From: a virus | DNA: 44,530 nucleotides | Virus record (IMG/VR): IMGVR_UViG_3300031234_000017 | Coordinates: 1 to 44,530 of that record | Strand: one strand, 5' to 3' | Part shown: one piece after another, positions 2,043-33,290 of the stretch | How the letters are laid out: each line of letters opens with the position of its first letter | How positions within the stretch are numbered: position 1 is the first letter of the stretch | Made by a program: the position numbers and the translations under genes | The notes under the pieces: model-generated | The model's database searches: none | What the model was told of the DNA's origin: nothing | What the model saw: the letters and a program-made list of their open reading frames with translations, nothing else

Positions 2043-2366
2043 ATGCTCGCCATTTTGGGGGCCATCCCCGTCATCGGTAAACTGCTAGCGTGGATCTGGA
2101 GCCTGTTCGTCAAGCCTAAGCCTGTTGATCCGACCGCAGAGGAACTGGCCGCCAGTAACGCTACGGCTCAAACAGAACTAGCAGAGGAGAGAGTCGCAGA
2201 TGCAACTCGCCAACAGACCCAATCTGCTGTTGCCTACGAAACGTCATCCGTTGATCAAAAGATCAGTGCTGCTGAGTCTGCCCCTGCTCCTAGCGGCGTG
2301 CGCTTCAACCCAAACGCCCCCGGTTCAGCCAGCATTTTCACTGGCGACGATGGCGACCGCGGCTGA
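2043..2366 (+). CDS. Probable inner-membrane spanin (Rz-like)
   Basis: A 107-residue protein with one N-terminal membrane segment (about residues 2-23, ending in WIWSLFVK) followed by a soluble helical region rich in Ala, Glu and Gln (about residues 32-80) that looks like a periplasmic coiled coil, then a Pro/Gly-rich tail. This is the layout of i-spanins, which join an outer-membrane lipoprotein across the periplasm and fuse the membranes in the last step of lysis. The key support is the lipoprotein gene that starts inside it in another frame at 2200. It lies on the strand opposite to the holin and endolysin genes. Assignment rests on architecture, not on recognised sequence identity. Confidence 0.65.
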   Translation: MLAILGAIPVIGKLLAWIWSLFVKPKPVDPTAEELAASNATAQTELAEERVADATRQQTQSAVAYETSSVDQKISAAESAPAPSGVRFNPNAPGSASIFTGDDGDRG

Positions 2367-2520
2367 CTGTCCCGCGCCGCCGCCACAGGCGATCTGCAAT
2401 CTTCCAGTCATGACATTTAGCAGTTCTGGCGACACTGCTGCTACGGCCGCGGAGGTCCAGGTATTTCGTAAGGCCCAATCCAGCGCCTGCCCATGGCTCT
2501 ATCCCGCGCCCCCGAAATGA
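2200..2520 (+). CDS. Probable outer-membrane lipoprotein spanin (Rz1-like)
   Basis: A 106-residue protein with a basic N-region (TKRHPLIKR), a hydrophobic core and a clear lipobox LLAAC with the acylation cysteine at residue 34; the mature part is short and Pro-rich (TQTPPVQP, CPAPPPQA). It starts 157 bases into the upstream gene in another frame and extends 154 bases past its end, the overlapping Rz/Rz1 arrangement of two-component spanins. The start at 2200 has a GAGAGAG site upstream. It would be exported by Sec, lipidated and sorted to the outer membrane, pairing with the product of 2043-2366. The mature domain has four further cysteines, which is unusual for a small Rz1. Confidence 0.7.
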   Translation: MQLANRPNLLLPTKRHPLIKRSVLLSLPLLLAACASTQTPPVQPAFSLATMATAADCPAPPPQAICNLPVMTFSSSGDTAATAAEVQVFRKAQSSACPWLYPAPPK

Positions 2521-3038
2521 AACGCTGGCGCTGGCTCTCATCCAAATGGTCAAGCGTTAAGGATCATCTCAGAGGCGTTCGCGCCTATTTCACTACCCCC
2601 ATGCTCATGCCGCCACCTGCGGCCACCCTAGCACCGCCGCCCGTGGCGACTGCCAAACCTGAGGAAGATATGACCGACATTCTGCAAGCCGTGGAGGGTG
2701 CGGCCGTCACCCTGTGGGACAAGATCAAGGCATGGATCGGCGGCGAAGTGCAGACCGTTTCGGTTGTGCTATCAGCCGACGAACAGGCGCTCCTCTCGCT
2801 GTTTCAGCCGTTGCTGGCCAGCGCCGAAGCGAGTGCGCTGCAAGACCTGCTGACCTTCATCCGTGGGGTCCTCACCACCACGCCGGCTCAATCCTCACTC
2901 GATGCCTGGGAGACCATCATCCTGCAGGGCCTGGAGAAGCTGGGTGGCGAACTAGCGACGCTCGCCAAGAGCCTGGGATCAAATGTCCTGCAGGGTCTGA
3001 TCGCCTTCACGCTGGCGGCGCTGCCCAAGTCGGCGTAG
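2517..3038 (+). CDS. Hypothetical helical protein after the spanins
   Basis: A 173-residue protein if the ATG at 2517 is used, which overlaps the spanin stop as ATGA. The N-terminal 30 residues are basic and aromatic, followed by a Pro/Ala-rich linker (about 28-50). An internal ATG at 2670 has a better site (GAGGAAGAT) and begins MTDILQAVEG, so the real protein may be 122 residues. The C-terminal part is predicted helix with amphipathic repeats (LLSLFQPLL, LQDLLTFIRGVL, LQGLIAFTLAALP). No enzyme motif is visible. Position after the spanins suggests either a lysis accessory or an unrelated late protein. Confidence 0.65.
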   Translation: MKRWRWLSSKWSSVKDHLRGVRAYFTTPMLMPPPAATLAPPPVATAKPEEDMTDILQAVEGAAVTLWDKIKAWIGGEVQTVSVVLSADEQALLSLFQPLLASAEASALQDLLTFIRGVLTTTPAQSSLDAWETIILQGLEKLGGELATLAKSLGSNVLQGLIAFTLAALPKSA

Positions 3039-3052
3039 GATTTCCTCACTCG

Positions 3053-3078
3053 GAGGCCGTTCACGCAAGGCCGGCCTC
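3053..3078. terminator. Possible hairpin terminator
   Basis: GAGGCCG (3053-3059) pairs with CGGCCTC (3072-3078), a 7-bp GC-rich stem with a 12-nt loop, placed 15 bases after the stop of the gene ending at 3038. There is no T tract in the plus direction, so it may be a weak or factor-dependent terminator, or only an mRNA 3' structure. Confidence 0.4.
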
Positions 3079-3142
3079 TGAGGGCAATAGCGGGCCGCGG
3101 AGCGTAGTCTATGACACTTCGCGGTCTTTCTATGTTGATATC

Positions 3143-3155
3143 GGAATATAATTCC
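3143..3155 (+). promoter_or_regulatory. Candidate -10 region inside a palindrome
   Basis: GGAATATAATTCC contains a perfect TATAAT (3147-3152) and is itself an inverted repeat with 5-bp arms. It lies about 50 bases upstream of the gene at 3202, which has its own AGGAG site. No convincing -35 box is present at 16-18 bp, so an activator or a phage-specific factor may be needed. Confidence 0.4.
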
Positions 3156-3201
3156 AGTATTCTCCGGCCATCCGATCAACGGATAAAGCAGGAGAACTAC
3201 T

Positions 3202-3519
3202 ATGATGATAGTTAAAATTATGGGCGGAGATTCCTATGACGATGGATCGACAACATCCACGTTTACGCTTCATGCAGGCGTAAAATCCGTCACTTTCAGC
3301 CGTGGCAGTTATGGTCTAGGAATGGTCGCAGAGAACAATCCGACGGCGCATATACTGTTCGAGGATGGATCGCAAGAAGATTTCTTTGTCCCTGGAAATG
3401 CCTATGTGATGAACTCTCAGGGTAAAACGATATCGTCGTGGGGTGGATTGGCTTATATAGGTCAGCCGACACCCGATGATCCGGAAGCATCCGATGGTCC
3501 GGAAGATCGTCGTATCTAG
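3202..3519 (+). CDS. Hypothetical small protein, possibly separately expressed
   Basis: A 105-residue protein of mixed beta-type composition with an acidic C-terminus (PTPDDPEASDGPEDRR). The start is well supported by GCAGGAG a few bases upstream and a candidate TATAAT further up. No signal peptide, membrane segment or catalytic motif is visible. It stands alone, with 163 bp of non-coding sequence before it and a tRNA just after it, and is more AT-rich than its neighbours, so it may be a recently acquired single-gene cargo (moron-like). Function unknown. Confidence 0.65.
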   Translation: MMIVKIMGGDSYDDGSTTSTFTLHAGVKSVTFSRGSYGLGMVAENNPTAHILFEDGSQEDFFVPGNAYVMNSQGKTISSWGGLAYIGQPTPDDPEASDGPEDRRI

Positions 3520-3530
3520 GTACAATTCGG

Positions 3531-3603
3531 ATCGGGGTAGCTCAATGGTTAGAGCCGACCGCTCATAACGGTCTGGTTGCAGGTTCAAGTCCCGCCCCCG
3601 ATA
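3531..3603 (+). tRNA. tRNA-Met (CAT anticodon)
   Basis: A complete cloverleaf: acceptor ATCGGGG (3531-3537) pairs with CCCCGAT (3596-3602), D-arm GCTC/GAGC with an 8-nt loop containing GG, anticodon stem GACCG/CGGTC with loop CTCATAA (CAT at 3564-3566), 5-nt variable loop, T-arm GCAGG/CCCGC with loop TTCAAGT, discriminator A at 3603. The T stem has one A:C mismatch. The next bases are CCG, so CCA is not encoded. The body resembles elongator tRNA-Met, but a CAT anticodon can also mark a tRNA-Ile2 modified by TilS. Confidence 0.9.
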
Positions 3604-3613
3604 CCGATTCTAT

Positions 3614-4081
3614 TTAAACCTGATAGACCCCAGTCGCCATCTGGGTCGACAGTCTAGCCGCCCGAGTGTGGATATCCTTGTACCACTGGGTCATAACGCC
3701 TGGCGCGTTCCACAACATGTCGTGTGCGCATAGTTCATAGTTCCCCGCCTGAGCGGAGGCGATCGTCTGCGTGAAGTTCAGGAACCGATTTACACCCAAA
3801 TTGAAGCACATCTCCGCGAACACATCGAAGCGCGGCGGACTGAGATGCGGCGTCCAGTCCAAATGCGCCACCAGGCCATTGATGGCCGTCTGGGCATCCT
3901 CCGCCAGCCACTGCTCAGCCTGAGCGAAAGTGCAGCGCTGTCCCGGCTCTACGCCAACCGCATGTCCGTACCCGATGGTATAAGGCTTGCCGTGGGTATT
4001 AGGATCAGCGTAGGCCGTTAGCTCTGGTCCTCCCTCACCTAGCCGCAGGGATGCCAGCAGCTTTAGGCTAGGGGTGATCAT
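3614..4081 (-). CDS. Endolysin, GH24 lysozyme (T4-type muramidase)
   Basis: A 155-residue protein that hydrolyses the glycan strands of peptidoglycan. The GH24 signature is at the N-terminus: catalytic E16 in LGEGGPELTAYAD, D26, and T35 in YTIGYGHAVG, matching the E-D-T triad of T4 lysozyme. A second family region, FDVFAEMCFNLGVNRFLNF, lies near residues 84-103. It has no signal peptide or N-terminal membrane anchor, so release to the periplasm depends on a holin. Its ATG overlaps the stop of the upstream holin gene as ATGA, the classical holin-endolysin pair. It ends about 10 bases from the convergent tRNA. Confidence 0.93.
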   Translation of the reverse strand: MITPSLKLLASLRLGEGGPELTAYADPNTHGKPYTIGYGHAVGVEPGQRCTFAQAEQWLAEDAQTAINGLVAHLDWTPHLSPPRFDVFAEMCFNLGVNRFLNFTQTIASAQAGNYELCAHDMLWNAPGVMTQWYKDIHTRAARLSTQMATGVYQV

Positions 4082-4368
4082 GCCGACCCCTTAACTGAAG
4101 GCGCAGGTACGGTTTCCGGGGGCGGCGCGTTGATAGCTGCTACGATAGTCTTTTGGTTACTGTGCTCATGAATCCATGTCCATCCAAAGGACACGAACCA
4201 CAGGACAGCAGAGATCCCTAGCGACACGAACATAGCTTGCTGGTTGCTCTGGATCACGCCATAGCCGGTCAGGGCCGTAGCAGCGGCCGTAAGCCCCTTC
4301 TGCGCCACAGCTCGAATGAGCGCATCGACGAAACTCGGGACCGGAATCGAAGAGGTGTTATCGTTCAT
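4078..4368 (-). CDS. Putative holin
   Basis: A 96-residue membrane protein with a strong transmembrane segment at about residues 45-68 (MFVSLGISAVLWFVSFGW) and a weaker hydrophobic stretch before it (about 26-40), then a charged/Pro-rich cytoplasmic-type tail. Size, membrane layout and direct overlap with the endolysin start support a holin that makes the hole through which the endolysin escapes. No specific holin family is recognised. The start at 4368 shares its A with the upstream stop (TGATG). Confidence 0.7.
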   Translation of the reverse strand: MNDNTSSIPVPSFVDALIRAVAQKGLTAAATALTGYGVIQSNQQAMFVSLGISAVLWFVSFGWTWIHEHSNQKTIVAAINAPPPETVPAPSVKGSA

Positions 4369-4958
4369 CAGTCTTCTCCGACGTTGAGCGGAATGTGCAG
4401 CAGCTTGAGCACGACGCCAAGCGCCTTATTGCCCTGCGTCAGAACGAGGATAGAGGCCCCCAAGAAAGCCAACAGGCCAGCCCCCTTGCCGACCTTGCCA
4501 TCCATCTTGGCCCCCTCCGCCGCCCCCCTGGCTGCGCCCTCAGTAGCCGCCTTGACGTCTTCTGACTTGGAGCTGTCTACCCGTCGCATCACTTCATCCA
4601 CCAAGCCCTTGGCTTCCTTGATCCGCGTGTCGAGCTCGCGATAGGTGTTGGTCTGCGTAGCGAGAATCTCAGAGGTAGTGTTCTCAACTCGGCGTGCGTG
4701 GCGCTCATGGTCCGAACGAAGCGTCTCCAGCGCTTCCGCAGTCTCAGCGTTTCGCTTGACGTTCTCGCTTGCACGAGCGTCTTGCCTCCGCATATGGTCC
4801 AGAACTTCTGACAGGGTGCTAGCCATCTCATCGACCTTGATGATAAGCGGCCTGAGGTCTGGCGCGTCTCGGGGGCGTGGTGGATTCGTCACTGACCTAC
4901 GCGCTCCCCTTATCTGGCGTGGACTGCCTGCCGGGGCCGTATGGACCGCAACCTGCAC
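4368..4958 (-). CDS. Coiled-coil protein with C-terminal membrane anchor
   Basis: A 196-residue protein with a basic, Pro-rich N-terminus (to about 40), a long charged helical region typical of a coiled coil (about 42-125), an Ala/Gly-rich segment, and one hydrophobic C-terminal segment (about 160-176). Translation from the GTG at 4958 fits the short gap after the upstream stop; an internal ATG at 4826 (MASTLSEV) would remove the basic extension. It sits directly upstream of the holin. The layout resembles lysis-regulating or membrane-tethered phage proteins, but no homolog is recognised. Confidence 0.7.
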   Translation of the reverse strand: MQVAVHTAPAGSPRQIRGARRSVTNPPRPRDAPDLRPLIIKVDEMASTLSEVLDHMRRQDARASENVKRNAETAEALETLRSDHERHARRVENTTSEILATQTNTYRELDTRIKEAKGLVDEVMRRVDSSKSEDVKAATEGAARGAAEGAKMDGKVGKGAGLLAFLGASILVLTQGNKALGVVLKLLHIPLNVGED

Positions 4959-4961
4959 AGT

Positions 4962-5177
4962 TTAATTCTCCGTGTTTCCGTCAGCACTAACCAACGTTAC
5001 ACCTAGCTTTTGCGCGATAGCCTTTTGGTTGGCTGACAAAACCACCTCAACCTTATGCCGCGCCGCTAGAGATTGGGCGCGCTCCATATCCAGGTGGATC
5101 GCTAGAAACACCACACAAACGAAGATCCAGCCCATGATGACCAGAGAGCGCAGATCATGATCGTCTAACTCCGGCAT
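4962..5177 (-). CDS. Small single-pass membrane protein in the lysis block
   Basis: A 71-residue protein starting at the ATG at 5177, chosen for its strong AAGGAAGGAG site; the open frame extends further upstream but inside the preceding gene. One transmembrane helix is seen at about residues 13-32 (SLVIMGWIFVCVVFLAIHL), preceded by an acidic N-terminus and followed by an amphipathic helical tail. Topology would suit a small holin, antiholin or i-spanin-like partner. It overlaps the upstream membrane protein gene by 13 bases. Confidence 0.7.
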   Translation of the reverse strand: MPELDDHDLRSLVIMGWIFVCVVFLAIHLDMERAQSLAARHKVEVVLSANQKAIAQKLGVTLVSADGNTEN

Positions 5178-5653
5178 TTCGGCTCCTTCCTTTCCGCGCC
5201 ACCACGATGCCAATAATGACTGACAGGAGCAGGAAACATCCTCCGGAGTATACCAATGGCGACATGGACACGTGGACCTCCCGCTACAAGGGCGATTTGC
5301 ATCCATGCTACCACATTTAGACCGACCTGTAGGATGTAGCGTCTATGATCCGTATGAGGACCGCGGTCATAGGCCGTATGGCCGGTTGTCTGCGCTACGA
5401 AGCTAACCGCTAAGAGCAGTAGCCAGTTCGATGGCCATTGCGACCACATCAGAATGCAGGTCACTCCTACCAGCAGGTCGAGAGCCGGACCTACTGCGAT
5501 AGCCGCATCTGGACCGATGAAGAGATAAGCGGCCATGCAGATCATCCACATGGCCGCCATCATCGACCCGCAGAAACGTTCTGTGAGATGGCCCTGGAAA
5601 CTGGCAACAGCCAGCAAGAGCACACACAGACCGAAAGCTGCAGATACTATCAT
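5165..5653 (-). CDS. Multi-pass membrane protein
   Basis: A 162-residue protein with four or five predicted transmembrane helices (about residues 1-19, 28-47, 52-70, 75-90 and 112-128) and a basic, His-containing C-terminus. I chose the ATG at 5653 because it overlaps the upstream stop as TGATG; the longer open frame to 5857 is an Arg-rich shadow of the preceding gene. Phage lysis regions often carry such small membrane proteins next to the holin. Function unknown; a holin-like or superinfection-related membrane role is possible but not shown. Confidence 0.7.
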   Translation of the reverse strand: MIVSAAFGLCVLLLAVASFQGHLTERFCGSMMAAMWMICMAAYLFIGPDAAIAVGPALDLLVGVTCILMWSQWPSNWLLLLAVSFVAQTTGHTAYDRGPHTDHRRYILQVGLNVVAWMQIALVAGGPRVHVAIGILRRMFPAPVSHYWHRGGAERKEPKCRS

Positions 5654-5989: not shown

Positions 5990-7783
5990 TTAGGTTGCGG
6001 AGATCGCCACGCCTGCTCCAGTAACCCAGACGCCTGCGTAAAGCATGGCCAAGGATGGGGCACCGTGGGCGCAATTGGAGCACGACGCTATGGTGCCGTT
6101 AGGGAGACTGGTCTCAGTGTTTAGTTGGGCTACAGTGAAAGTCATGCCGACTTCGAAGAAGCCCGCGCCAGCCTTGACCAAGTTGGACGCAGTGTACGTG
6201 CCGGACTGGTCCAAGGTAGCCAGGGGGGCGGCCGATCCTGTGTTGAGCCAGGAGAGCACGCCCGACGATCCGTTGACCGACTCCACAACCTCATTGGTGG
6301 GGGAACCAATATGTACGCCTCCGGCGGCGTCCACCGCGTACAGGCGGTTGGCGACGCTGCGGGTGTTGGCGTAGAACAAGAAGTATGTCCAATTAGGCGG
6401 AGACGTTCCACCACTCTCATCAAACAGACGTGATTGATATGCAGCGAAACAATTACCCCATCTGCATTCAGTGTTTATTCCTACTGGAGTAGTGCCAGCT
6501 TCATCAAAGGCCACTATTGTATCTATCTCATTTGTTACTGCCCCAGTCGTACCTGTAAGGGTGGAAGATTGGGCTTCTATTGGCGTAGCTCCTCCGCCGG
6601 TAGTTCCAACTTTTGCCGTGTCAATGTCAATTCCGCCAATGTCTCCATTAGATCCCTGCCTACCGACAATATATAGACCGTCAACTTCACCGACAGTCGA
6701 GCTAGTCAGATAATTTTGCTTGGCGTAGATGAGGCCCAATACGGCGTCCGTATTGGCTGGCCCATTGGTGCCGGAACCAGTGGGGAAGCGAGTAAGTACT
6801 GCGTTGAACTGCGCGTTGGCCGGATGGGGCGCGGTGGCGCTGGAGACGAGCAGTTGGCTGGTGAGCCATTGGCCACCGTAGCCTACCGCCGCGAACTGCG
6901 AAGAGGCGTCCAACGAGGTCGCCGTGCTGTTTAAGTTCAGCGCTCCCGTCGCCAGTGTTCCAACTCCCGTTATCCCCGCATAGGCTCCAGTGAGATGTCC
7001 ACTTGCCAGCGTCCCCGACGAAATGTTGCTCGCGTTCGTCGTGTCTATCGTCGCAGACGACGCAAATGCAACTCCGCCCGTCTTCGTGCATGTCAGAGAG
7101 ATGCTCGTGGCCCCCGACCCGGAGCAGTCCGAGGACACCGTCACCGTCTGGTTCCCAGATAGCGGCGTGTAGCCCAGCGCCGTCGTCACGTTGGAACTCG
7201 TCAGCGCTGATTGCGTCGCGAACGGCCCGAACGCTACGCCGCCCGTCTTTGTGCAGGTGATGGTCGGGACAGAAAGCGAGCAGTCTCCGCTCAAAGTGAA
7301 GCCCCCGAACGAAGACGAATTGTTAAACTGAATCTGGCCGCTCGTACCACCTGGAATGCCGCTGGCGGTGCTGCATCCAAATCCCGTCCCGCTCGTATAG
7401 CTGAGCGCTTGGTTGAGTCCTACGCATGACGGAAGGCTGGATGTCGATGGGACGCCAGAACTTCCGGTCGTGTTAGCCAGCAATGAATTTGCAGATATCG
7501 GCGCGATGGAAATCGTTGGGCTGGAAGAAACCAAGCCGCCGCCAGATAGGCCCGTCCCCGCGTTGATTGTCGCCGTGTTGATGACGCCCCCCCCGGCCAC
7601 AACGATCTGCGTCGGACTGCACCCGGCAGAGCCAAAGGTCGTCCCAACGGGGGCGCATGGGGTCTGCGCACCCGAGGCTGTGGAGGCGGCTGGAAGCAGC
7701 CCAACGGGCTGCGCCTTTGCGGCCATGGAAGTTACAAAAAGGGCGCCGGCGGCGACCCCTACGAGGAGAGCAGCCCGACCCAT
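5990..7783 (-). CDS. Tail fibre-like protein with signal peptide
   Basis: A 597-residue Ser/Thr/Gly-rich protein with the composition and repeats of phage receptor-binding fibres: beta-strand repeats such as CTKTGGVAF occur twice, with segments of the type seen in trimeric fibres (GTSGQIQFNN, SLLANTTGSSG). Unusually, it begins with a Sec-type signal sequence: MGRAA, a hydrophobic core, then AAKA before QPVG (about residue 24). It contains many paired cysteines (ECRWGNC, CSNC), as in exported proteins. The start at 7783 lies 25 bases inside the upstream gene. It could be a surface-binding or secreted adhesin-like protein. No catalytic motif seen. Confidence 0.8.
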   Translation of the reverse strand: MGRAALLVGVAAGALFVTSMAAKAQPVGLLPAASTASGAQTPCAPVGTTFGSAGCSPTQIVVAGGGVINTATINAGTGLSGGGLVSSSPTISIAPISANSLLANTTGSSGVPSTSSLPSCVGLNQALSYTSGTGFGCSTASGIPGGTSGQIQFNNSSSFGGFTLSGDCSLSVPTITCTKTGGVAFGPFATQSALTSSNVTTALGYTPLSGNQTVTVSSDCSGSGATSISLTCTKTGGVAFASSATIDTTNASNISSGTLASGHLTGAYAGITGVGTLATGALNLNSTATSLDASSQFAAVGYGGQWLTSQLLVSSATAPHPANAQFNAVLTRFPTGSGTNGPANTDAVLGLIYAKQNYLTSSTVGEVDGLYIVGRQGSNGDIGGIDIDTAKVGTTGGGATPIEAQSSTLTGTTGAVTNEIDTIVAFDEAGTTPVGINTECRWGNCFAAYQSRLFDESGGTSPPNWTYFLFYANTRSVANRLYAVDAAGGVHIGSPTNEVVESVNGSSGVLSWLNTGSAAPLATLDQSGTYTASNLVKAGAGFFEVGMTFTVAQLNTETSLPNGTIASCSNCAHGAPSLAMLYAGVWVTGAGVAISAT

Positions 7784-8058
7784 TGTCCATCCGTTCTATA
7801 GATTCTGACAGCAAAAAGGCTTTCGTCGTAATAGGTCATGCCAAAGCTTGGCGTTGAGTAGCCGAGGGCGCTAATGGCCGCCATAAATGCCGAAAGATTG
7901 GCATAGGGGGGGATCACAAGGGAAATGACCTGCGATCCATCCGCTAGGATGCATAGGGAAAAGTTTTTATCGAGCGCTGGCGTTCCTGCGGTTGGACCGG
8001 CAGGTGGCCTATAGCTCGGATTCCCCGATCCGGCGAACTTTGTAAGGTTTGCGGCCAT
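7759..8058 (-). CDS. Small hypothetical protein in the fibre cluster
   Basis: A 99-residue protein lacking a signal peptide, unlike its neighbours on both sides. It has a Pro/Gly-rich N-terminus (to about 30) and a compact alpha/beta C-terminal part (about 33-97) with no known motif. Its ATG shares bases with the upstream stop (TAATG) and its end overlaps the fibre gene start. It may be a small fibre-associated or chaperone-like protein, but this rests on location only. Confidence 0.65.
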   Translation of the reverse strand: MAANLTKFAGSGNPSYRPPAGPTAGTPALDKNFSLCILADGSQVISLVIPPYANLSAFMAAISALGYSTPSFGMTYYDESLFAVRIYRTDGQWVGLLSS

Positions 8059-8729
8059 TATTGCGTGGCCTCCCGAGCCAGCACCATTACTGGTGTTCCG
8101 GAGGTGCAGGTTGTGCCGAACGGACTTAGACTAAGTCCCGCCGTAATGATGGACAGGTTCAGCGTGGTGGTCTGCGCGGGGAAGCAAAGTCCGCTTGCCC
8201 CCGTCGACGATCGAGACAGCGCCTGACATGGGATCGGAAGCGTAGACCCGCTAGGCAGCAATAGTTGCGCCTCCACGATTGGCGTGTTCGTCGTCATGAC
8301 CCGAGAAAAGGTGACAGACCAACTGCAGTTGGATGCTACGGTCGTGTTGATGGCTTGGACAGCCGTTGGGCGCGTGGAATCCGGCCGCTCCATGCAGATT
8401 GGAGATGTACCTGCTGATCCATTCAGGGTGTCAGCCAGGGGCGTCGGGCATGGTGAAGGCGTGGCCGCTGTAATTGCTGCGGAGACTCCCGTGGGAGTCA
8501 TATAACTGGACGCGGCGTTAGCTTCCGACGTAGAGATCGCGCTAGCCTGAGCAGCCGCAATAGCTGCGGCGTTGGCGGCCTGGGCCTGCGCATCAGTATA
8601 TGACGCAGGCGGATTTGTGGCGACGGCCTGAGCTGATGCGTTAGGGAAAACGACCGATTCCGAAAGAACGGGAAAAGCAGTTCCCATCTGAATCAGGATA
8701 AGGATAGCTGCTATGCGATTTTGATTCAT
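8058..8729 (-). CDS. Fibre-region protein with signal peptide and helical stalk
   Basis: A 223-residue protein from the ATG at 8729, which overlaps the preceding stop as TGATG. Residues 1-23 look like a Sec signal peptide (MNQNR, hydrophobic core ILILIQMGTAFPVL). Residues about 38-75 are an Ala-rich helix (AQAQAANAAAIAAAQ) resembling a coiled-coil stalk, followed by a beta-rich domain with six cysteines (CPTP, ICME, NCSW, PCQA, LCFP, TCTS). An even number of cysteines after a signal peptide suggests disulfides. It lies between the esterase-like gene and a small protein in the fibre operon. Function unknown. Confidence 0.7.
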   Translation of the reverse strand: MNQNRIAAILILIQMGTAFPVLSESVVFPNASAQAVATNPPASYTDAQAQAANAAAIAAAQASAISTSEANAASSYMTPTGVSAAITAATPSPCPTPLADTLNGSAGTSPICMERPDSTRPTAVQAINTTVASNCSWSVTFSRVMTTNTPIVEAQLLLPSGSTLPIPCQALSRSSTGASGLCFPAQTTTLNLSIITAGLSLSPFGTTCTSGTPVMVLAREATQ

Positions 8730-10675
8730 CAACCGCCTCCTAGCAATGCGCCGCTGACGATAGCGCAAGAACGCGATCCGGAACAGGTGACGGAAGATGC
8801 AGGAGAAAGAGCGGTGTTTATGAGGGTAGTCATTTTCGGAGCGATTATGGCGTTTCCCGGCTCCATAGGATGGAAGCTATCGAAGTGATATTGGGCATTA
8901 TTGTAGATCATGGACGCCCATGTCGATCCAAAGTCGGCGTATGTGAAGCTCGGATCTCCAGTGTAGGACGCCGCGCCGGTTGCCATCAGCCCCAGGTAGG
9001 TTGTTCCGCCAGTGACGGTGTTGGCGTCGAGCGGCAACCCGGGCAGCAGGACCATTTTCGCTGACGGCGCAGCCGCTCGCTCGGTGGTGAGCATCTGCTT
9101 GATAGCCGGTCCGAACAGGGTCTGCGACACCGACTCGTTGGCGTCGTTCGTCCCGATGTTCGTGAAGATCAGGGACGGCGCCGTCCCTGTCGCGCCGTGT
9201 GCGCTGAGTTGGCCGTTTGAGTCAAGCGCGGAGACGCCTAGGTCCACGAGGTTCCACCGCGACGCGGCCGTGCAAGCGCCGGTGGTGGTCGTGACGATGC
9301 AGAGGCCAGGCACGAAGTTGTCATAGGCCGCGCCTGCGTAAAGGACACCGGAGCCAGACGTCGCGATCGACCCGACGTCGTAGCCCTGGGCGAACAGCGC
9401 CTGGGCGACCATCCAGACGTTGGAGTGGATGTAGTCGTCCGCGCCGTTGTCGACGAGGTAGCCGACGTTGATGCTGTCGCCCTGGACGAGGGCCCACCCC
9501 TTGTAGGCGATCCCCGTCGCGCCGGACGGCTGGCAAGGGGCGAGGGCCGTCCCGGCCGTCGAGCCCGCGTCGAGCTGGATGCCGTCCGACTCCAGGCCGT
9601 AGAAGTTCGCGCCCGTCTGACCCCAGATGCTCGCGCCCGGGTTGCCAATCTGGCGCGCGACGACCATGACCTCATTCGTCGCGCTCGGCACGGCCGCGAC
9701 GGGCACCGTTCCCACTGCGGTCGCCTGGGCGTCGTAGAGGACGCCGTTGACGAACACCGAGACCGGCATGCCGTCGACGTTCGGGCCGAACATGAGGTTC
9801 ATGGTCGGCGTCGCCGAGGCCGTGAAGGCCGCGCAGTAGTACGCGCCGGGCTGGATCGTGCGCGGGTTGGTGACGCCACTGGCGCACGTCGTCGAGCCGA
9901 AGCATTGCCAGTTGCGCGGCGAGTAGTGAAGCGCGGTAGAGGAGGGCGCGACGGAACTAATCGTCGTGTCGCCGTATAGCGTGACCTCTTCCATCGGGAT
10001 CAGCGTCCCGCCGGACTGGAGGATCTGGTACAGGCCCATCAGCCCGCGGACGTAGCTTGAGTCCGTCGTCGTGGGGGCCGCGACGCACGTCCCCGGGACG
10101 GCCACTGTGGCAAGGCAACCCGTGAGCGTGTTGACGCCAGCGCTCACCGTGTCCGTCAGGGTCAGATAGTAGTCGGTCGCTGCCACACTGGTGAATGTCG
10201 CCGACGTCAGGGACGTGAACGCGAGGGTGCCGGTCTCCTTGATGATGTTGACTGACGTCGCATTGACGTAGAGGCAGTACCCTGTGATCGCACTCGTCGA
10301 GTAGCCGATGTGCGTGCACACGGCAGGGGCATTATTCGCCATGCCAGAGTTGGCGGTGTAGCGGACCCGGATCTGCTGGTCGCCTGTCGCGCCGCCACGG
10401 GACAGCAGCATGTGGATGACGTTGAAGCCATTGCCGGATGTCCCGAGCGGTTCCCCGCTGGGGGTCAGACCGTTGCCCGACGTGATCCCCCAGATCGACC
10501 CGAAGCCATCAACGAAGTTGGGAACAGCACCAGGAGACGCGGTGGGGGAAACAGGGCCGCCGGTAGGCGTGTAATCAAGATACGACGTGTATGTGGCTGC
10601 AATGGCTGAATGTAGCAGTCCGAAGGCAAGAATGATGGCGACGAGAGTCCCTGCGAACATCGACAGTTTTTTCAT
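8729..10675 (-). CDS. SGNH/GDSL-type esterase with signal peptide, fibre-region protein
   Basis: A 648-residue protein in the tail-fibre block. Residues 1-26 form a Sec signal peptide (MKKLS, hydrophobic core, AIAA). A beta-rich N-terminal part (about 27-390) is followed by an SGNH hydrolase domain (about 390-620): GDS with nucleophile S401, GTND with N510, and DSFHP with D599 and H602, matching blocks I, III and V. This family removes acyl groups from carbohydrates or lipids, so deacetylation of capsule, EPS or LPS is likely. Twelve cysteines, mostly in close pairs, point to an oxidising environment. It may be a virion surface enzyme or a secreted one. Confidence 0.85.
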   Translation of the reverse strand: MKKLSMFAGTLVAIILAFGLLHSAIAATYTSYLDYTPTGGPVSPTASPGAVPNFVDGFGSIWGITSGNGLTPSGEPLGTSGNGFNVIHMLLSRGGATGDQQIRVRYTANSGMANNAPAVCTHIGYSTSAITGYCLYVNATSVNIIKETGTLAFTSLTSATFTSVAATDYYLTLTDTVSAGVNTLTGCLATVAVPGTCVAAPTTTDSSYVRGLMGLYQILQSGGTLIPMEEVTLYGDTTISSVAPSSTALHYSPRNWQCFGSTTCASGVTNPRTIQPGAYYCAAFTASATPTMNLMFGPNVDGMPVSVFVNGVLYDAQATAVGTVPVAAVPSATNEVMVVARQIGNPGASIWGQTGANFYGLESDGIQLDAGSTAGTALAPCQPSGATGIAYKGWALVQGDSINVGYLVDNGADDYIHSNVWMVAQALFAQGYDVGSIATSGSGVLYAGAAYDNFVPGLCIVTTTTGACTAASRWNLVDLGVSALDSNGQLSAHGATGTAPSLIFTNIGTNDANESVSQTLFGPAIKQMLTTERAAAPSAKMVLLPGLPLDANTVTGGTTYLGLMATGAASYTGDPSFTYADFGSTWASMIYNNAQYHFDSFHPMEPGNAIIAPKMTTLINTALSPASSVTCSGSRSCAIVSGALLGGG

Positions 10676-10679
10676 CGGA

Positions 10680-11288
10680 TCAGCTCAGCGAGCACCAGAC
10701 GGAAGGCGTTCCGGTCGCCCCCGTCACGGTGACCTTGACGTTTGCCGCGGTAAGGCCCTGAGTTGATCCTGTCACTACTCCAATATTCCCAGGAAGGGAC
10801 GTAAAACTGGCGCCCATGATGTTATTGAACGTCGCGCCATCAGGGCCAAGGACCTGAAGTTGAAGCGTCGCCCCAGCGATCGTGCCGCTACATCCGAAAA
10901 TATATGAATTTCCTATTACGGGCCCAACTGCTGCGCCAGTGGCGGATGCGCCGGAACCGCCATAGGTCCCGAGCAGCTGGTATCTAGAATTTTGAACATA
11001 AGTGGCCAGCCCCAGATTGGCTATTCCTATGGCCGGATCGGCAAATCCTGTTGCGACGTCCTTGAATGCATCGGGCGTCACCGTCGAGGGATAGGCGCTT
11101 CCGACGGAGGCGCTTGGGGACGCCCCCCCTCCACCAGAGCATGTAGAGCACACGACATGAAGGCCATTGACGTCGACCTGGGCGCCAAACGCATTAGTCG
11201 GGTCGGTAATCGTAACGGGGGGGGCGGATACGGCCGATGAGGCTAACCCTAGGGCCGAAAGGAACGCAATATATGGCGCCATCTTCAT
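10680..11288 (-). CDS. Fibre-region protein with signal peptide
   Basis: A 202-residue protein from the ATG at 11288, preceded by AGGGG; an upstream ATG at 11342 would put 18 polar residues ahead of a clear signal peptide (MKMAPYIAFLSALGLASSAVSA). The mature protein is Gly/Ser/Thr-rich with a Gly run (CSGGGG) near residue 55 and beta-type segments toward the end; it has four cysteines. It sits immediately before the SGNH esterase gene, with a 4-bp gap. It is probably part of the same surface-acting module; no family is recognised. Confidence 0.7.
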   Translation of the reverse strand: MKMAPYIAFLSALGLASSAVSAPPVTITDPTNAFGAQVDVNGLHVVCSTCSGGGGASPSASVGSAYPSTVTPDAFKDVATGFADPAIGIANLGLATYVQNSRYQLLGTYGGSGASATGAAVGPVIGNSYIFGCSGTIAGATLQLQVLGPDGATFNNIMGASFTSLPGNIGVVTGSTQGLTAANVKVTVTGATGTPSVWCSLS

Positions 11289-11347
11289 GTTCGAACCCCT
11301 ATGGTTTGGACATATAGCATGGTTCGGTACGCCCTTGAACATCGGTG

Positions 11348-11803
11348 TCAGCCCCCACCCAAGAAGATGATTTGCACATTCATGGGCACATTAGCGGTTG
11401 CGCCCGTAGCCGTGTCGGTGACAAGACAGTTAAAATCAGCGTCTAGTTCCGTGTTCGACATATTAACGCTGCCAGTGAAGGATGTGGTGGAACTGGACGG
11501 GCTGTTAATGGAAATTCCAGTATCCCCGTCCACATAAGACCATGCATAGGTGAATGGTCCAATTCCATTGGCGGGGGAAACGGTGGTGGGTGCGGTGGTG
11601 GTCGGACCTGGAGTGCGCGTATCGCTTATTAGATTGGACGGGGAGGCGCTGGCGGTAAGGCCGGAAAAGAATATCTGCTGACCAGAACCAGATGTTCCTA
11701 CATATCCAGCCAGAACGCGCTGCTGACCAGAACCAGATGTCCCTACATAAATTGAAATTATGGTCTGCTGTCCAGAACCGACAGTTCCAACATATGCCGT
11801 CAT
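11348..11803 (-). CDS. Repeat-bearing protein with Ig-like domain
   Basis: A 151-residue protein. Residues 4-48 are three tandem 15-residue repeats, each beginning YVGTxGSGQQ. Residues about 65-145 resemble an Ig/PKD-like fold as found on phage virion surfaces: GPFTYAWSYVDGD, then TSFTGSVN, then FNCLVTDTATGA, which carries the typical late cysteine and tyrosine/aspartate pattern. Ig-like domains on phages often bind weakly to surface carbohydrate. The ATG at 11803 overlaps the upstream stop (TGATG). No signal peptide, unlike the next four-gene group. Confidence 0.7.
   Translation of the reverse strand: MTAYVGTVGSGQQTIISIYVGTSGSGQQRVLAGYVGTSGSGQQIFFSGLTASASPSNLISDTRTPGPTTTAPTTVSPANGIGPFTYAWSYVDGDTGISINSPSSSTTSFTGSVNMSNTELDADFNCLVTDTATGATANVPMNVQIIFLGGG
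11660..11794 (-). repeat. Three 45-bp coding repeats
   Basis: Three tandem 45-bp units encode the 15-residue repeats at residues 4-18, 19-33 and 34-48 of the Ig-like protein. Units 2 and 3 share almost all of the YVGTSGSGQQ-coding bases; unit 1 has diverged more, including V for S at position 5. The last five residues of each unit vary (TIISI, RVLAG, IFFSG). Confidence 0.85.
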
Positions 11804-12714
11804 CAGGCTGACGCCACAAGGAAGTAAATTTCACCAACGTCTAGTCCTTCTGGAACTCCGGTTCCCCATGCGATGAGTCCAGAATTTCCGGTTTCTCCGG
11901 AAAGTACGCGAGCGGCGGTCATTCCGGATATTGAAAATCCAGCAACTCCGGAGATGGCGATCGATGCGGTAGAAGCAGATGTCGCGCTTGTAGCGTTTCC
12001 GTTTAAATTTCCGGTAAATAATGATGAAGAGACTGGAATTGAAAACGCTGCAGATGATGAACTTATTGCTAGATAATTCGATTCACCGGCCTGGGCCTGA
12101 ACGGAAAAGGTTCCCCCAGTTGGAAATCTGATTGCTAGGTTTGTACCGTCTCCTATAAGCCCGGTTGAAACTCCGGGACCTATGTTTATTCCAGTTGTTC
12201 CTACGGTTATGACTCCATTAACCGTTAAAACAGATGTCGAGTTATTCCAGGTCAGATTGGTCGACCCAGCAAAAACGCCTGAATTGTTATATTGAATTTG
12301 GGTATTTGCGCCGCCAGGAATGGAATTTGCGCTAGCTTGGCGCACATTCGTTCCGTCGCAGGCCAGCACGAGAGACGACCCCTGGACGACAGATACGCTC
12401 GTTCCGGCCCCTCCCGAAGCGATCGTAATCGTGAACGCGCCAGATGTGGCGTTGAACACCGCCCCGAACCATCCCACCCCAGCGGGAAACTGATAGGTCA
12501 CATTGGCGGTAAGCGCGCCCGATATAACGATGGCGGGCGGCGTATATTGGGCGGACGTCAGAACGACAGTTCCGGACGCGGACACCGCATTGATGATCGA
12601 TGTTCCGCCAAGCGCAGAGTCTATAGAGTTCCAATTGGCGTTGACGGGAACGTCCCAGTCACCAACGAAACTTCCATTTGATGGCGTAGCCAAGCTCTTA
12701 TTTTGGGTAGCCAT
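11803..12714 (-). CDS. Tail fibre protein
   Basis: A 303-residue protein with the usual look of a phage tail fibre. The N-terminus (GDWDVPVNANWNSID) resembles the virion-attachment region of fibre proteins, followed by beta-rich segments, a motif common in fibres (GANTQIQYNNSGVFAGS, about residues 135-151) and Ser/Thr/Ala-rich repeats. No signal peptide is present. It lies between the large ejection proteins and the signal-peptide fibre block and overlaps both neighbours by one to four bases. It is probably the component that anchors the distal fibre parts to the tail. Somewhat lower GC than its neighbours suggests separate origin. Confidence 0.8.
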   Translation of the reverse strand: MATQNKSLATPSNGSFVGDWDVPVNANWNSIDSALGGTSIINAVSASGTVVLTSAQYTPPAIVISGALTANVTYQFPAGVGWFGAVFNATSGAFTITIASGGAGTSVSVVQGSSLVLACDGTNVRQASANSIPGGANTQIQYNNSGVFAGSTNLTWNNSTSVLTVNGVITVGTTGINIGPGVSTGLIGDGTNLAIRFPTGGTFSVQAQAGESNYLAISSSSAAFSIPVSSSLFTGNLNGNATSATSASTASIAISGVAGFSISGMTAARVLSGETGNSGLIAWGTGVPEGLDVGEIYFLVASA

Positions 12715-15308
12715 TATGCCATTGCCTTCTGAGCGGCGTTGAGCGCCTTTATGACCGTCTTGTCTGGGATGGATAGAAGGGGCTCCGTGCGGGCCTTCTC
12801 GGCCCTACGCGCATGCTTGACCAGCTTATCGAGTTGATCCACGAGCGGAGTCACGTCCTCTGTCACCCCGCCTCCAGAGGCATATCCCTGCGGAGGCGCA
12901 TCATCTGTCTGGGGTGGCGCTTCAGTCCCGACCGAGGCCCATGGGTCTTTCTGTTTAGACGGCGCGATGATGGGGGCGGCAGGCACTGGCGGCGTGACTG
13001 GACTTGACCCTGGATCAGAGCGGGAGTCGTTTTCGGGAGATTCGTCCGGTTTCCAGTTGGATGAGATGTCCGTGACCGCCGCGCCGTCGTCAGGCTTGGC
13101 TATGGTCGGAGGCGGAGACCCGCCCACAAGCGCCCACGGATCAGTCTTTCCCGCCTGTTGTGCGGCTTGATTTTCCGCATCGGCCTTATCCTGGGTCGCC
13201 TGTTGGGCGATATTCGATCCCAACTCGACAGGAGCGGACTTTTTGCCAATGTTGGCGGCAATGTTCCCGGCCTTTTGCGGAATATCCATATATCCGGCCA
13301 CAGATGGCGCCCCGGCTCGCTCCTTGGCGCGAGTAACGCCGCTCAGGATATTCTCTCCAGCGTGCTCAGCGCCCCCTCCCAGGACCGCCCCAACTGCCTC
13401 CCCGATCGCGCCATGTCCCAAGGCGGCGGCCCCCATTGCGCCGGCCGCCGATCCAGCGACAGCGCGAGCCCCTTGCGCCACTGCGGAGCCAACCGGATTT
13501 CCATTCGATACGGGCGGCGCATTGACCACATCCTGGCCCGCAGCCTTCAACCGGATCTGGGCTTGATCTTGTGGGGAAAGCGTCTGGCCCAACGGCGTAT
13601 CCAGAAAATTCCGAACGGCCTGCGGCTTGGCGGGCGACGTCAGAACCGTGTTGCGGATATGGTCATTCAGCGCGTCGCTTCCAGTCGGGCCAAGAACGGT
13701 TCCAAGGTCGTGATACAGCCGCTCTCCGCCGGCATTCAAGTTCAGAGTCTTCGGATTGAAAAGGCCTTGCGCCAGAATGTTCTGGGCTTGCGAGACGTCT
13801 CCCGGGTTGCCGTCGTCTCCCATAACCTTCAGGGCACGCTTGATAGTCGGGTTCGCGTCCGGACTTTCGAACATGTTCGCATGCTGAGCATAGGCGCTCC
13901 GTGCGTTGGCGAAGTCCTGAGCGACGTAATCGGGGTTTCCGGTACTGACCAGGCCATGGCTAAGCGTATCGTTCACGCTCTGGGTAAAGGCATCCTTGAT
14001 CGTCGAGATGGATTTGGCGTCTGCACCGTCAGAATTGTTCCATAGGCGATTCAGCTCCTGGCGCACGTCCTCCAGATTCGAAAACGACAGGTCATTATTG
14101 CTCGCCAGCGCCCCCACCCGATCATTCAAGAAGTCCAGCGCATCCTTGGAGCCTTGCCGGGTCGGATAGGGATTAAGATCGGCGCGCGTGGCTGGCAGGC
14201 TTTTCGCCTTGAGGGCGTTCTGGACATTTTCGTCCAAGATATCCTTGAATACGGGATGAAGTGATCCCTCATTGGAGGAGGCTACCTTATACGCCGCGTC
14301 GACATTGGCCTTTGATGCCGTCTTGGCGTCGCTTAAGGCCTGTCCCAGCGCATTCGGGTCGTTATTGCCCGCCAAGGCGTCCCCGCGGCTGGAGATATCG
14401 GCTTGAGCGGCAGATTTGGCCTCCGCCGCCGTCCTGGATGCCGCCTCGGGCGCTCGAGCCTGAGTAGCTAGCGATCGTGATGGCGATGCGCCGTTATGGA
14501 TCAGGACAGCCTCACGCACGGCGTCCGGCGTCGTTCCTTTCTTCTGCATGGTCCGCGCCAGCGTCCCGCGGAAAGCGGGGTCGCTCAACTCGTCTGGACC
14601 GATCTCGCCCCCCGGAAACGCCTTCTGGACTGCCGCCAGCGCCTTTGGCGTGAAGTTGCCCGATCGATCCAGCGCCACGCCCCGCGCCATTTGCTGACCG
14701 ATCTGAGCCGAATTGGCCACAACCCGGCCCGCAGCTCCTATGGGCGTGCTCAATTCGCTCGCGAGCCTGGCGCCACGCGCAGCGCTTCCTAGCGCTTCTC
14801 CAACCGCTCCAGGCACGCGAGCGGCCAGCCCCTCTCCGCCGGCTGGAATGCTTGCCAGCGCGCCGACATCCCCGGCGGCCCGCCACGGATCAGTGGCCAA
14901 CGTCTGCTTTATAGCTCCCAGAGATCCATATGAGTTGCGAGCGTAATTTTTCGCAGCGGATAATCCAGCCGGGACGCTACGCGCAAATTCATCCACGGCG
15001 GGAGCAATGTAATAGGCTGGAGAGCCCCTCGGCGGCGGAGCCTGATGCGGTCCGGACCCGTTTTGCGAGAAGTGACGAGAGTTCCAGTAGGCGTCGCTTT
15101 GTGCCGGAAGCGTAGACAGGAAGTTGGATGCCGCGCCCCATGCGGTCTTCGGCAGGCTAACAAGATCTTGAACCTGCTGGTCAACGGCAGAGCCGAATCC
15201 AGTCGCCGCCTTCCTCGCCGCTACGGGGAGGACCTGTGACCACGGAGCCTGGCGATAGTCCTTAGCCTTTGGGGCCGCGCCTCCGACCTTGTCCCACTGG
15301 TCGGCCAT
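12714..15308 (-). CDS. Large internal virion (ejection-type) protein
   Basis: An 864-residue protein, Ala-rich and largely helical, with no signal peptide. The middle has long coiled-coil-like stretches (RTAAEAKSAAQADI, about residues 290-345); a Gly/Ala-rich hydrophobic stretch follows at about 620-665 (GSAAGAMGAAALGHGAIGEA), and a Pro-rich tail with DPWA repeats ends in a helical segment. Two large helical proteins placed between tail hub and fibre genes are typical of podovirus ejection proteins that leave the capsid and build a conduit across the envelope. The Gly/Ala stretch could insert into a membrane. No enzyme motif is seen. The assignment rests on position, size and composition. Confidence 0.7.
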   Translation of the reverse strand: MADQWDKVGGAAPKAKDYRQAPWSQVLPVAARKAATGFGSAVDQQVQDLVSLPKTAWGAASNFLSTLPAQSDAYWNSRHFSQNGSGPHQAPPPRGSPAYYIAPAVDEFARSVPAGLSAAKNYARNSYGSLGAIKQTLATDPWRAAGDVGALASIPAGGEGLAARVPGAVGEALGSAARGARLASELSTPIGAAGRVVANSAQIGQQMARGVALDRSGNFTPKALAAVQKAFPGGEIGPDELSDPAFRGTLARTMQKKGTTPDAVREAVLIHNGASPSRSLATQARAPEAASRTAAEAKSAAQADISSRGDALAGNNDPNALGQALSDAKTASKANVDAAYKVASSNEGSLHPVFKDILDENVQNALKAKSLPATRADLNPYPTRQGSKDALDFLNDRVGALASNNDLSFSNLEDVRQELNRLWNNSDGADAKSISTIKDAFTQSVNDTLSHGLVSTGNPDYVAQDFANARSAYAQHANMFESPDANPTIKRALKVMGDDGNPGDVSQAQNILAQGLFNPKTLNLNAGGERLYHDLGTVLGPTGSDALNDHIRNTVLTSPAKPQAVRNFLDTPLGQTLSPQDQAQIRLKAAGQDVVNAPPVSNGNPVGSAVAQGARAVAGSAAGAMGAAALGHGAIGEAVGAVLGGGAEHAGENILSGVTRAKERAGAPSVAGYMDIPQKAGNIAANIGKKSAPVELGSNIAQQATQDKADAENQAAQQAGKTDPWALVGGSPPPTIAKPDDGAAVTDISSNWKPDESPENDSRSDPGSSPVTPPVPAAPIIAPSKQKDPWASVGTEAPPQTDDAPPQGYASGGGVTEDVTPLVDQLDKLVKHARRAEKARTEPLLSIPDKTVIKALNAAQKAMA

Positions 15309-19646: not shown

Positions 19647-19647
19647 G

Positions 19648-20163
19648 TCAGTTCTCCACCATCTCAGTGGATAGCGTGGGCGAAAGCGCACCAGCAGATC
19701 CGGTCTTGCCGTTGTAGATCCAATACGCCCCAGACGGTTCGCCAAGAATGCGACGATACATGCGGACCTTGGCCTCTGTGCGCTGTGAGGACAGGATGCC
19801 GATCGTCAGGGGAATGCCGAGCTGATCCGCCACGCTCTTGGAGAACTCGCATAGGCGAGCGGCTCGTCCGCCTTTGGCTTGCCGATAGTCCGGATGAACG
19901 AAAATGGCGCGCTCCTCAAGAACGTCGCCATCGCTGTACCACATCGGACCAATTCGCAGCAGAACGGTGGCCTCAAGCTGTTCCCCTGGCGCGCCAATTA
20001 TCCCCACGATACCGCGATCACGGTTCAGCGCCGGCCAGATGTCCTGAAGCAACTTTTCAGGATTAGGCGCTAGCACGCCATTCTCTCGTGCTGCCATAAG
20101 CGCGATTTCCACCATCGGGTGGACGTCGTCAGGCGTTCCGATGCGGACGTGGATATCGCTCAT
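19648..20163 (-). CDS. GNAT-family acetyltransferase-like protein
   Basis: A 171-residue protein with the GNAT layout: N-terminal strand and helix (HVRIGTPDDVHPMVEIALMA), central strands (GIVGIIGA, LEATVLLRIG), then AIFVHPDYRQAKGGRAARL (about 89-107), where Q/R-x-x-G-G/A is the acetyl-CoA pyrophosphate-binding loop, and a final segment with MYRRILGE. It would transfer an acetyl group from acetyl-CoA to an amine; the substrate is unknown. Its place inside the virion block, 2 bases after an unknown structural gene and 1 base before the ejection protein, suggests that it modifies a virion or host protein late in infection. Confidence 0.8.
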   Translation of the reverse strand: MSDIHVRIGTPDDVHPMVEIALMAARENGVLAPNPEKLLQDIWPALNRDRGIVGIIGAPGEQLEATVLLRIGPMWYSDGDVLEERAIFVHPDYRQAKGGRAARLCEFSKSVADQLGIPLTIGILSSQRTEAKVRMYRRILGEPSGAYWIYNGKTGSAGALSPTLSTEMVEN

Positions 20164-20711: not shown

Positions 20712-21059
20712 CTAGCTATAGGACACGGTGACGACTTGACCCGTCCCCGGCGCAACCAAAATGCCATAGTTCACTGGCAAGTTCACCACATACGGCTCAT
20801 CAGAGACCATGTTGGGTATCTCATAGATCGGTCTCACAAGGCTGGTGGCTAAGCCGCTATCATAGATTAGTCCCGTCGCACTTCCGGCTGTGGTGACACT
20901 GACGGAGCAGACTCGGCCAGCGCCGGCTTGGACAAGCGTGGTTGCGGAGATGGCGGGAAGGCCGGCCAATCCCTGAACCTGCTTATAGGTCTGAGACAGG
21001 CCGTTTACAGCCTGAACAAGTAATTGGGCTGTAGTTTGTAGGTCCGTAAGCGTCGCCAT
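20712..21059 (-). CDS. Small virion-type protein
   Basis: A 115-residue protein with an N-terminal helix (MATLTDLQTTAQLLVQAVNG) and a beta-rich C-terminal half that ends VVTVSYS. The pattern of a short helix followed by a jelly-roll-like domain is common in head-fibre or tail-accessory proteins. It is coupled to the gp10-like gene by a TGATG overlap. No named family is recognised, so function is inferred from position only. Confidence 0.65.
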   Translation of the reverse strand: MATLTDLQTTAQLLVQAVNGLSQTYKQVQGLAGLPAISATTLVQAGAGRVCSVSVTTAGSATGLIYDSGLATSLVRPIYEIPNMVSDEPYVVNLPVNYGILVAPGTGQVVTVSYS

Positions 21060-32985: not shown

Positions 32986-33290
32986 CAGGAGATCTTTCCA
33001 GTTGAGTTCAGGCCGGGACGCAGAACGGCGTCGGCATAGGAATCGTACGTGGCTGACTCGACTTGATTCCGATGATTAAGGCTGTCATCCAAAACTATCG
33101 TATCGGCCCAGCTCACGCTCTCGCCCAACTTAAGCGACGTGATGCTCTCGCATACTCGTTGCATCGTTTCAGGGGTGAATTGAACGAATACGTCCGAACC
33201 GGAGGAGCTCCGCAAACGAAGCTCAACGAACGGGGAGACTTTTCCCCCGTGCTCGCGGTCGAACTTCCTGGCTGTGAGCATCGCTGACAT
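32985..33290 (-). CDS. Small hypothetical protein after the portal gene
   Basis: A 101-residue protein with a polar, mixed alpha/beta composition (VELRLRSSSGSDVFVQFTPE, then MQRVCESITSLKLGE). Its ATG overlaps the portal stop as TAATG and its own stop overlaps the next start as TGATG, so it is translationally linked to both. No motif is recognised. The position next to the portal suggests a minor head-assembly role. Confidence 0.6.
   Translation of the reverse strand: MSAMLTARKFDREHGGKVSPFVELRLRSSSGSDVFVQFTPETMQRVCESITSLKLGESVSWADTIVLDDSLNHRNQVESATYDSYADAVLRPGLNSTGKIS

Follow-up and report, generated by a model that had tools for sequence, protein, structure and literature searches.

The question raised by this locus is why a phage should place four proteins with Sec-type signal peptides and many cysteines at the end of its tail-fiber region. 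The DNA is the IMG/VR virus record IMGVR_UViG_3300031234_000017, the whole of which (44,530 bases) was analyzed and is called the window here; the four genes lie on the minus strand, next to the fiber genes in the tail operon, and encode proteins of 202, 648, 223 and 597 amino acids (aa), listed in order from the fiber genes (Table 1). Host range is decided by tail fibers, the folding of which is assumed to take place in the reducing cytoplasm. The reading preferred here, with a probability of about 0.72, is that the cluster encodes receptor-binding or tail-fiber-type proteins that would leave the cytoplasm by the Sec pathway, lose their signal peptides, fold in the periplasm and act outside the cytoplasm.

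Signal Peptides and Cysteines of the Four Proteins

Features of Sec/signal peptidase I substrates, namely, a positively charged n-region, a hydrophobic h-region and an AxA-like c-region at the N-terminus, were present in all four proteins, the 202-aa protein being marginal. Signal peptides were scored using a simple rule for the n-, h- and c-regions (not SignalP), by which ten E. coli Sec substrates used for calibration scored 11.4–15.1, and the 202-, 648-, 223- and 597-aa proteins scored 9.9, 14.9, 13.3 and 12.7, respectively. Random sequences of the same composition matched these scores in 1.2%, 0, 0 and 0.07% of cases, respectively, the signal peptide of the 202-aa protein being the weakest. 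In each protein, the most hydrophobic 12-residue stretch was the N-terminal segment. The 202-aa and 223-aa proteins require an internal ATG as the start, with the Shine–Dalgarno sequences AGGGG and AGGAGG, respectively. No further gene model in the non-redundant list for the window passed the score; this list omits an Rz1-like lipoprotein in an overlapping frame (2200–2520), the only other exported-looking open reading frame (ORF) seen. With random placement, the probability that four signal peptides among approximately 38 genes would all fall within this block of five genes is about 7 × 10−5. A lipobox cysteine at position +1 after the signal peptide, as in lipoproteins of the Llp/Cor type, was looked for and found in none of the four.

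The 202-, 648-, 223- and 597-aa proteins contained 4, 12, 6 and 12 cysteines, respectively, all of these counts being even. Cysteine made up 2.0% of their residues (34 of 1670 aa) versus 0.6% (47 of 8296 aa) in 22 other virion and packaging proteins (3.6-fold odds, p = 7 × 10−8). The sequence-only reading of the window had proposed Sec-type N-termini for all four proteins, which was borne out by the rule-based prediction, and its counts of 12 cysteines in an esterase and of 6 and 4 in two others were correct, the 12 of the 597-aa protein having been omitted. The esterase label also agreed with the domain search, in which residues 473–609 of the 648-aa protein scored above the Pfam cut-off (PF13472, E = 7 × 10−9; PF00657, E = 5 × 10−6). 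This protein shares with SGNH/GDSL esterases the domain and the GDS, GTND and DxxH motifs but differs from them in its signal peptide and in a long cysteine-containing N-terminal half without a database match; its single-sequence structure prediction was uninformative, with a predicted local distance difference test score (pLDDT) of 31. No homologs of the 648-aa protein were found in cultured phages, viral contigs or genome contigs, and none of the 202-aa protein in phages or viral contigs; the 223-aa protein had no homolog in phages and no database match. No PHROG profile, including those of tail fibers, matched any of the four, and the Pfam S74 domain was found in none of them.

Covariation of the Cysteine Pair with the Signal Peptide

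The 597-aa protein carries a repeat, GDC-x(8)-CTKTGGVAF, the second copy of which is followed by TTNASNISSGTL. The same repeat occurs in ordinary phage fibers, where A or G and V replace the two cysteines. All viral contigs were scanned with DNA patterns for the cysteine version (GDC...TCTKT) and the cysteine-free version (GD[A/G]...TVTKT); the scan was blind to signal peptides, and near-duplicates were removed. The partner residue was cysteine in 32 of 32 cysteine-version contexts (30 counted directly; in the other two, the pattern caught an earlier D although GDC is present) and in no cysteine-free context. All 29 assessable cases of the cysteine version lay in proteins with a signal peptide, whereas for the cysteine-free version this was true of 10 of 22 (a few of these were not fibers); Fisher's test for this difference gave p = 4 × 10−6, a value that, like the other p values, overstates the strength of the evidence because the contigs share ancestry. 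Signal peptides in the scan were called by the rule described above, applied liberally to multiple possible starts, for which the background was 7.6%. Judged from these sequences, the implication runs one way: the cysteine pair implies a signal peptide, but not the reverse. The combination of signal peptide and cysteine-pair fiber architecture was found in about 30 other viral contigs and is thus not peculiar to the window phage, and the consensus of this class shows a typical AxA↓Q cleavage motif. Tests of cysteine positions in two further fiber domains (TAFV and PIVQ) had too few cases.

The number of cysteines in the mature part was even in 22 of 24 complete cysteine-version proteins (p = 4 × 10−5), compared with 162 even and 153 odd counts among control proteins of the same contigs with at least two cysteines. 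There was no parity bias among all signal-peptide-scoring ORFs in the class loci (34 even, 32 odd) and a weak one among the more strictly scored neighbors with signal peptides (18 even versus 7 odd). An AlphaFold model of a window fragment, for which 48 aligned sequences were used, had a mean pLDDT of 68 and values of about 83 in the hairpins; strands were formed by residues 41–45 and 48–52; with the register taken from these strand limits, the model suggests that Cys42 would face Cys51 (Cys168 and Cys177 of the 597-aa protein) if the strands pair as an antiparallel hairpin.

It could be argued that the hydrophobic N-termini anchor the proteins in the membrane or serve as assembly tags, rather than direct export, and that the cysteines are incidental, given that the export prediction is computational and that the score of the 202-aa protein is marginal. 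However, the covariation, the even parity and the hairpin geometry would be unexpected in a reducing cytoplasm, and the cleavage motif of the class is typical, so this explanation is considered very improbable. Export of the four proteins, as the sequence-only reading had supposed, and their disulfide bonding are well supported by their sequence features.

Kinship with Virion Fibers and Cellular Relatives

The closest homolog of the 597-aa protein was found in contig L247 (31% identity over 477 aa and 52.6% over 116 aa); it has a signal peptide, keeps two cysteine pairs (four cysteines) and has a glycine-rich tip. A signal-peptide protein of contig L253 matched the pectin-lyase protein of Burkholderia phage BcepMigl (44% over 108 aa), which lacks a signal peptide and has V and A where the L253 protein carries cysteines. 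In contig L230, a signal peptide was fused to an LPxxxxLxGxExxPIVQxG domain, which elsewhere forms the extreme N-terminus of ordinary fibers. Some class members matched tail fiber or tailspike profiles, their neighbors matched tail, tail-fiber, portal and terminase PHROGs, and genes with signal peptides often stood side by side in these contigs. Ordinary fibers and tailspikes of Caudoviricetes (phrog_12796, phrog_32881, BcepMigl gp27) share with the class the repeats, a tailspike domain, tip domains and the position in the genome, but they have no signal peptide, carry V, A or G at the positions of the cysteine pair, and are made and assembled in the cytoplasm.

The fiber ancestry of the 597-aa protein and of its class is evident from these alignments. 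Among the four proteins, kinship with virion fiber repeats, as traced by sequence, concerns the 597-aa protein only, through the repeat common to phage fibers without signal peptides; the 202- and 223-aa proteins may be fibers, judging by their appearance. At least the 597-aa protein is a fiber-type module, and the other three are taken as such from their likeness. No match to the cysteine-pair peptide was found in 50,697 phage records, and no description of this fiber class was found in the literature; its near absence from cultured phages is apparently the reason why the class has been overlooked. It appears to represent widespread, undescribed phage fibers built to leave the host cytoplasm.

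Members of the repeat family were also found at 25 loci of bacteria or archaea, many of them in metagenome-assembled genomes of Acidobacteria and Bdellovibrio-like organisms and often with a signal peptide (e.g., L335, L337, L340 and L353). The closest described exported system, likened here by description, would be the mosaic adhesive trimer (MAT) fibers of Bdellovibrio, in which a signal peptide and a conserved beta domain of ~130 aa are followed by a body resembling phage tail fibers; they are exported by the cell, and the C-terminus of some is an S74 chaperone/protease carrying SDxxxK (PMC10769870). MAT fibers are encoded on the chromosome of a predatory bacterium and used on prey, whereas the genes studied here lie in a phage tail operon; the text of the MAT paper does not mention disulfides (PMC10769870), whereas the present class has cysteine pairs. 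The bacterial loci, together with the union of signal peptide and phage-like S74 fiber in MAT proteins (PMC10769870), would suit an origin of the window proteins from secreted host adhesins, kin to the fiber-like proteins of Bdellovibrio and Acidobacteria and acquired by the phage. This origin is considered unlikely, as a sample of 385 genomes from one bacterial class contained neither repeat version, versus 32 viral contexts of the cysteine version.

The Same Site in Related Phages

In most relatives, nothing separates the gene of the small tail protein from the lysis genes. Approximately 48 relatives (counted by eye) had at least 5 kb of sequence downstream, and among these, genes with signal peptides stood at the corresponding site in five contigs of two types, making three types of such cargo once the window is included. 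Contig L110 had two such genes, encoding proteins of 239 aa with 4 cysteines and 290 aa with 6 cysteines; the latter has at its end an S74-type chaperone that includes the SDxxxK motif and matched Pfam below the cut-off (E = 0.009). A protein of similar type takes the place of the window's 151-aa protein in L110 (likeness by eye; no tblastn match). Contigs L122 and L133/L134/L140 carried an unrelated pair (L122, 6759–9469; L133, from about 10,795), consisting of an N/T/S-rich protein of 294–375 aa and an acidic protein of 529–539 aa, both with signal peptides. The proteins at this one site are varied, and it thus accepts exported cargo of different kinds.

Two further observations concern the same region. 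A probable HNH-type endonuclease gene, recognized by eye, lies between the fiber and signal-peptide genes of L110 (11,472–11,999) and could help to mobilize fiber cargo. In L143, the fiber gene is followed by four consecutive paralogous proteins of ~370 aa with SPDGITWTARTLPSS repeats and without signal peptides (11,013–15,458).

Genomic Context

The window belongs to a podovirus-like phage and is probably a fragment of a larger genome, because related records run to 52–61 kb. By portal protein, its named relatives were the uncultured MW202675 and, more distantly, phages of Caulobacter, Roseobacter and Pelagibacter. The gene order is tail fiber, 151-aa protein, the four signal-peptide genes and then the lysis genes; the tail fiber protein had 208 relatives. 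Contamination with host DNA was rejected as the source of the cluster, the GC content of which is like that of the rest of the window and the genes of which overlap or abut in one run with the fiber genes.

The ejection-type protein at 15,309–19,745 (minus strand) has a transglycosylase domain and an internal S74-like chaperone segment (residues 373–421; PF13884, E = 8 × 10−8), which had two matching places in several relatives. In the lysis region, the Rz1-like lipoprotein (2200–2520, plus strand), with an LLAAC lipobox read in the sequence and a frame overlapping 2043–2366, is a probable outer-membrane spanin. A tRNA-Met (CAT) gene at 3531–3605 (plus strand) adjoins the endolysin gene.

Table 1. 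Features of the window, with positions in the 44,530-base record.
Feature	Position	Strand	Remarks
Lysis genes	2200–5306		Downstream of the signal-peptide cluster
Endolysin	3614–4081		phrog_7, E = 3 × 10−21
597-aa fiber-repeat protein with signal peptide	5990–7783	minus	12 cysteines
Second copy of the cysteine pair, SDC(220)...TC(232)TKTGG	7088–7126	minus	597-aa protein
Cysteine pair GDC(168)...TC(177)TKTGG	7253–7282	minus	597-aa protein; predicted beta-hairpin
Cysteine pair LPSC(120)...GFGC(137)	7373–7426	minus	597-aa protein; conserved in L247
Signal peptide of the 597-aa protein	7712–7783	minus	MGRAALLVGVAAGALFVTSMAAKA, predicted cleavage before QPV
99-aa ORF without signal peptide	7759–8058	minus	Between the genes of the 223- and 597-aa proteins
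223-aa protein with signal peptide	8058–8729	minus	6 cysteines; Ala-rich coiled-coil-like stretch and fiber-tip-like C-terminus (by eye)
Signal peptide of the 223-aa protein	8676–8729	minus	Begins MNQNRIAAILILIQMGTA
648-aa protein with signal peptide and GDSL/SGNH esterase domain	8729–10,675	minus	12 cysteines
SGNH hydrolase region, residues 399–612	8840–9481	minus	GDS, GTND and DSFHP motifs
Signal peptide of the 648-aa protein	10,598–10,675	minus	MKKLSMFAGTLVAIILAFGLLHSAIA
202-aa protein with signal peptide	10,680–11,288	minus	4 cysteines in the mature part; no family match
Signal peptide of the 202-aa protein	11,226–11,288	minus	MKMAPYIAFLSALGLASSAVSA, predicted cleavage near residue 21
151-aa tail-region protein without signal peptide	11,348–11,803	minus	YVGTxGSGQQ repeats
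Tail fiber protein without signal peptide	11,803–12,714	minus	Conserved N-terminal domain; phrog_12796, E = 7 × 10−8, and alignment
Two internal virion/ejection-type proteins	12,714–19,745	minus	Upstream of the fiber genes
Virion protein	21,059–23,158		578 relatives among viral contigs
Major head protein	27,737–28,651		
Portal	33,290–35,605		
Terminase	37,378–39,033		

Discussion

According to the proposed mechanism, the four proteins would be made late, together with the tail genes, and exported by the host Sec pathway with cleavage of the signal peptide; they would then fold in the oxidizing periplasm, where DsbA-type oxidation would form cross-strand disulfides that staple the beta-hairpins and the proteins may trimerize, and they would act on the cell envelope or receptors, outside the cytoplasm. 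The sequence-only reading had spoken of a secretion-like module; no export machinery was found, and the host Sec system would suffice. The reading is thus partly supported: its two alternatives, surface-acting proteins or virion proteins assembled after export, both remain plausible. The 597-aa protein at least is a fiber-type module and not a secreted factor of a new kind. Late phage proteins that use host Sec export are known in Lys44 of fOg44, an endolysin with a Sec signal peptide, and in signal-arrest-release (SAR) endolysins (PMC6116005), but these are lysis enzymes, unlike the fiber-type proteins considered here.

The destination of the exported proteins may be the virion: fibers already folded in the periplasm would join the progeny virions when the cell lyses or later. 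This route, to which somewhat less than an even chance is given, is consistent with the position in the tail operon and the modular kinship with virion fibers and tailspikes, and because of that kinship, we lean slightly toward it over free factors. Purified P22 tailspikes are known to attach to spikeless heads in vitro. On the other side, most members have a signal peptide where ordinary fibers have their N-terminal attachment domain, and the loss of this domain argues against the virion route; moreover, we know of no tailed phage in which virion fibers are exported and attached later.

Alternatively, the genes may be exported morons, the late products of which, surface-bound or free, would bind, block or modify receptors and surface sugars, either on the infected cell or on its debris, thereby excluding superinfection or keeping progeny off debris in the manner of lipoprotein or Cor-type exclusion proteins. 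This is a plausible second candidate, at slightly longer odds. The signal peptides, the SGNH esterase and the quite different signal-peptide proteins at the same site in L122/L133/L140 are in its favor. Against it, the 597-aa protein and its class have repeats in common with virion fibers, and further elements of virion fibers occur in single contigs, namely, an N-terminal domain in L230, a tailspike domain in L253 and an S74-type chaperone in L110. T5 Llp, N15/phi80 Cor and lambda Lom are exported phage proteins encoded beside receptor-binding genes. Compared by description from general knowledge, they share with the four proteins the signal peptide and the location beside host-recognition genes, but they are small single proteins, either lipoproteins or membrane proteins, without fiber repeats, whereas the present class is large and fiber-like. 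A destination other than the virion or a free factor is rather unlikely.

Several points weigh against the preferred reading of exported receptor-binding or fiber-type proteins, besides the shared ancestry of the contigs and the liberal signal-peptide search given above. Signal-peptide genes are missing from this site in most relatives; the module is therefore dispensable, an optional cargo inserted between fiber and lysis genes. A role in the virion needs an extra step because tail assembly is, to our knowledge, cytoplasmic in known phages. The fiber nature of the 648-, 223- and 202-aa proteins rests on position and appearance, because they have no homolog in the collections searched.

A class of exported fibers is left unexplained by standard models of how phage tails are assembled. 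It may tentatively be proposed that a whole class of tailed-phage fibers is secreted by Sec, stapled by disulfides in the periplasm and docked on virions during or after lysis, which would amount to maturation split between two compartments. Given a widespread class in which the signal peptide covaries with a disulfide pair, either the completion of some virions would occur outside the cytoplasm or free fiber-like agents would bind or edit the host surface, and either outcome would alter the way in which receptor-binding proteins ought to be annotated, expressed (in the periplasm, under oxidizing conditions) and tested.

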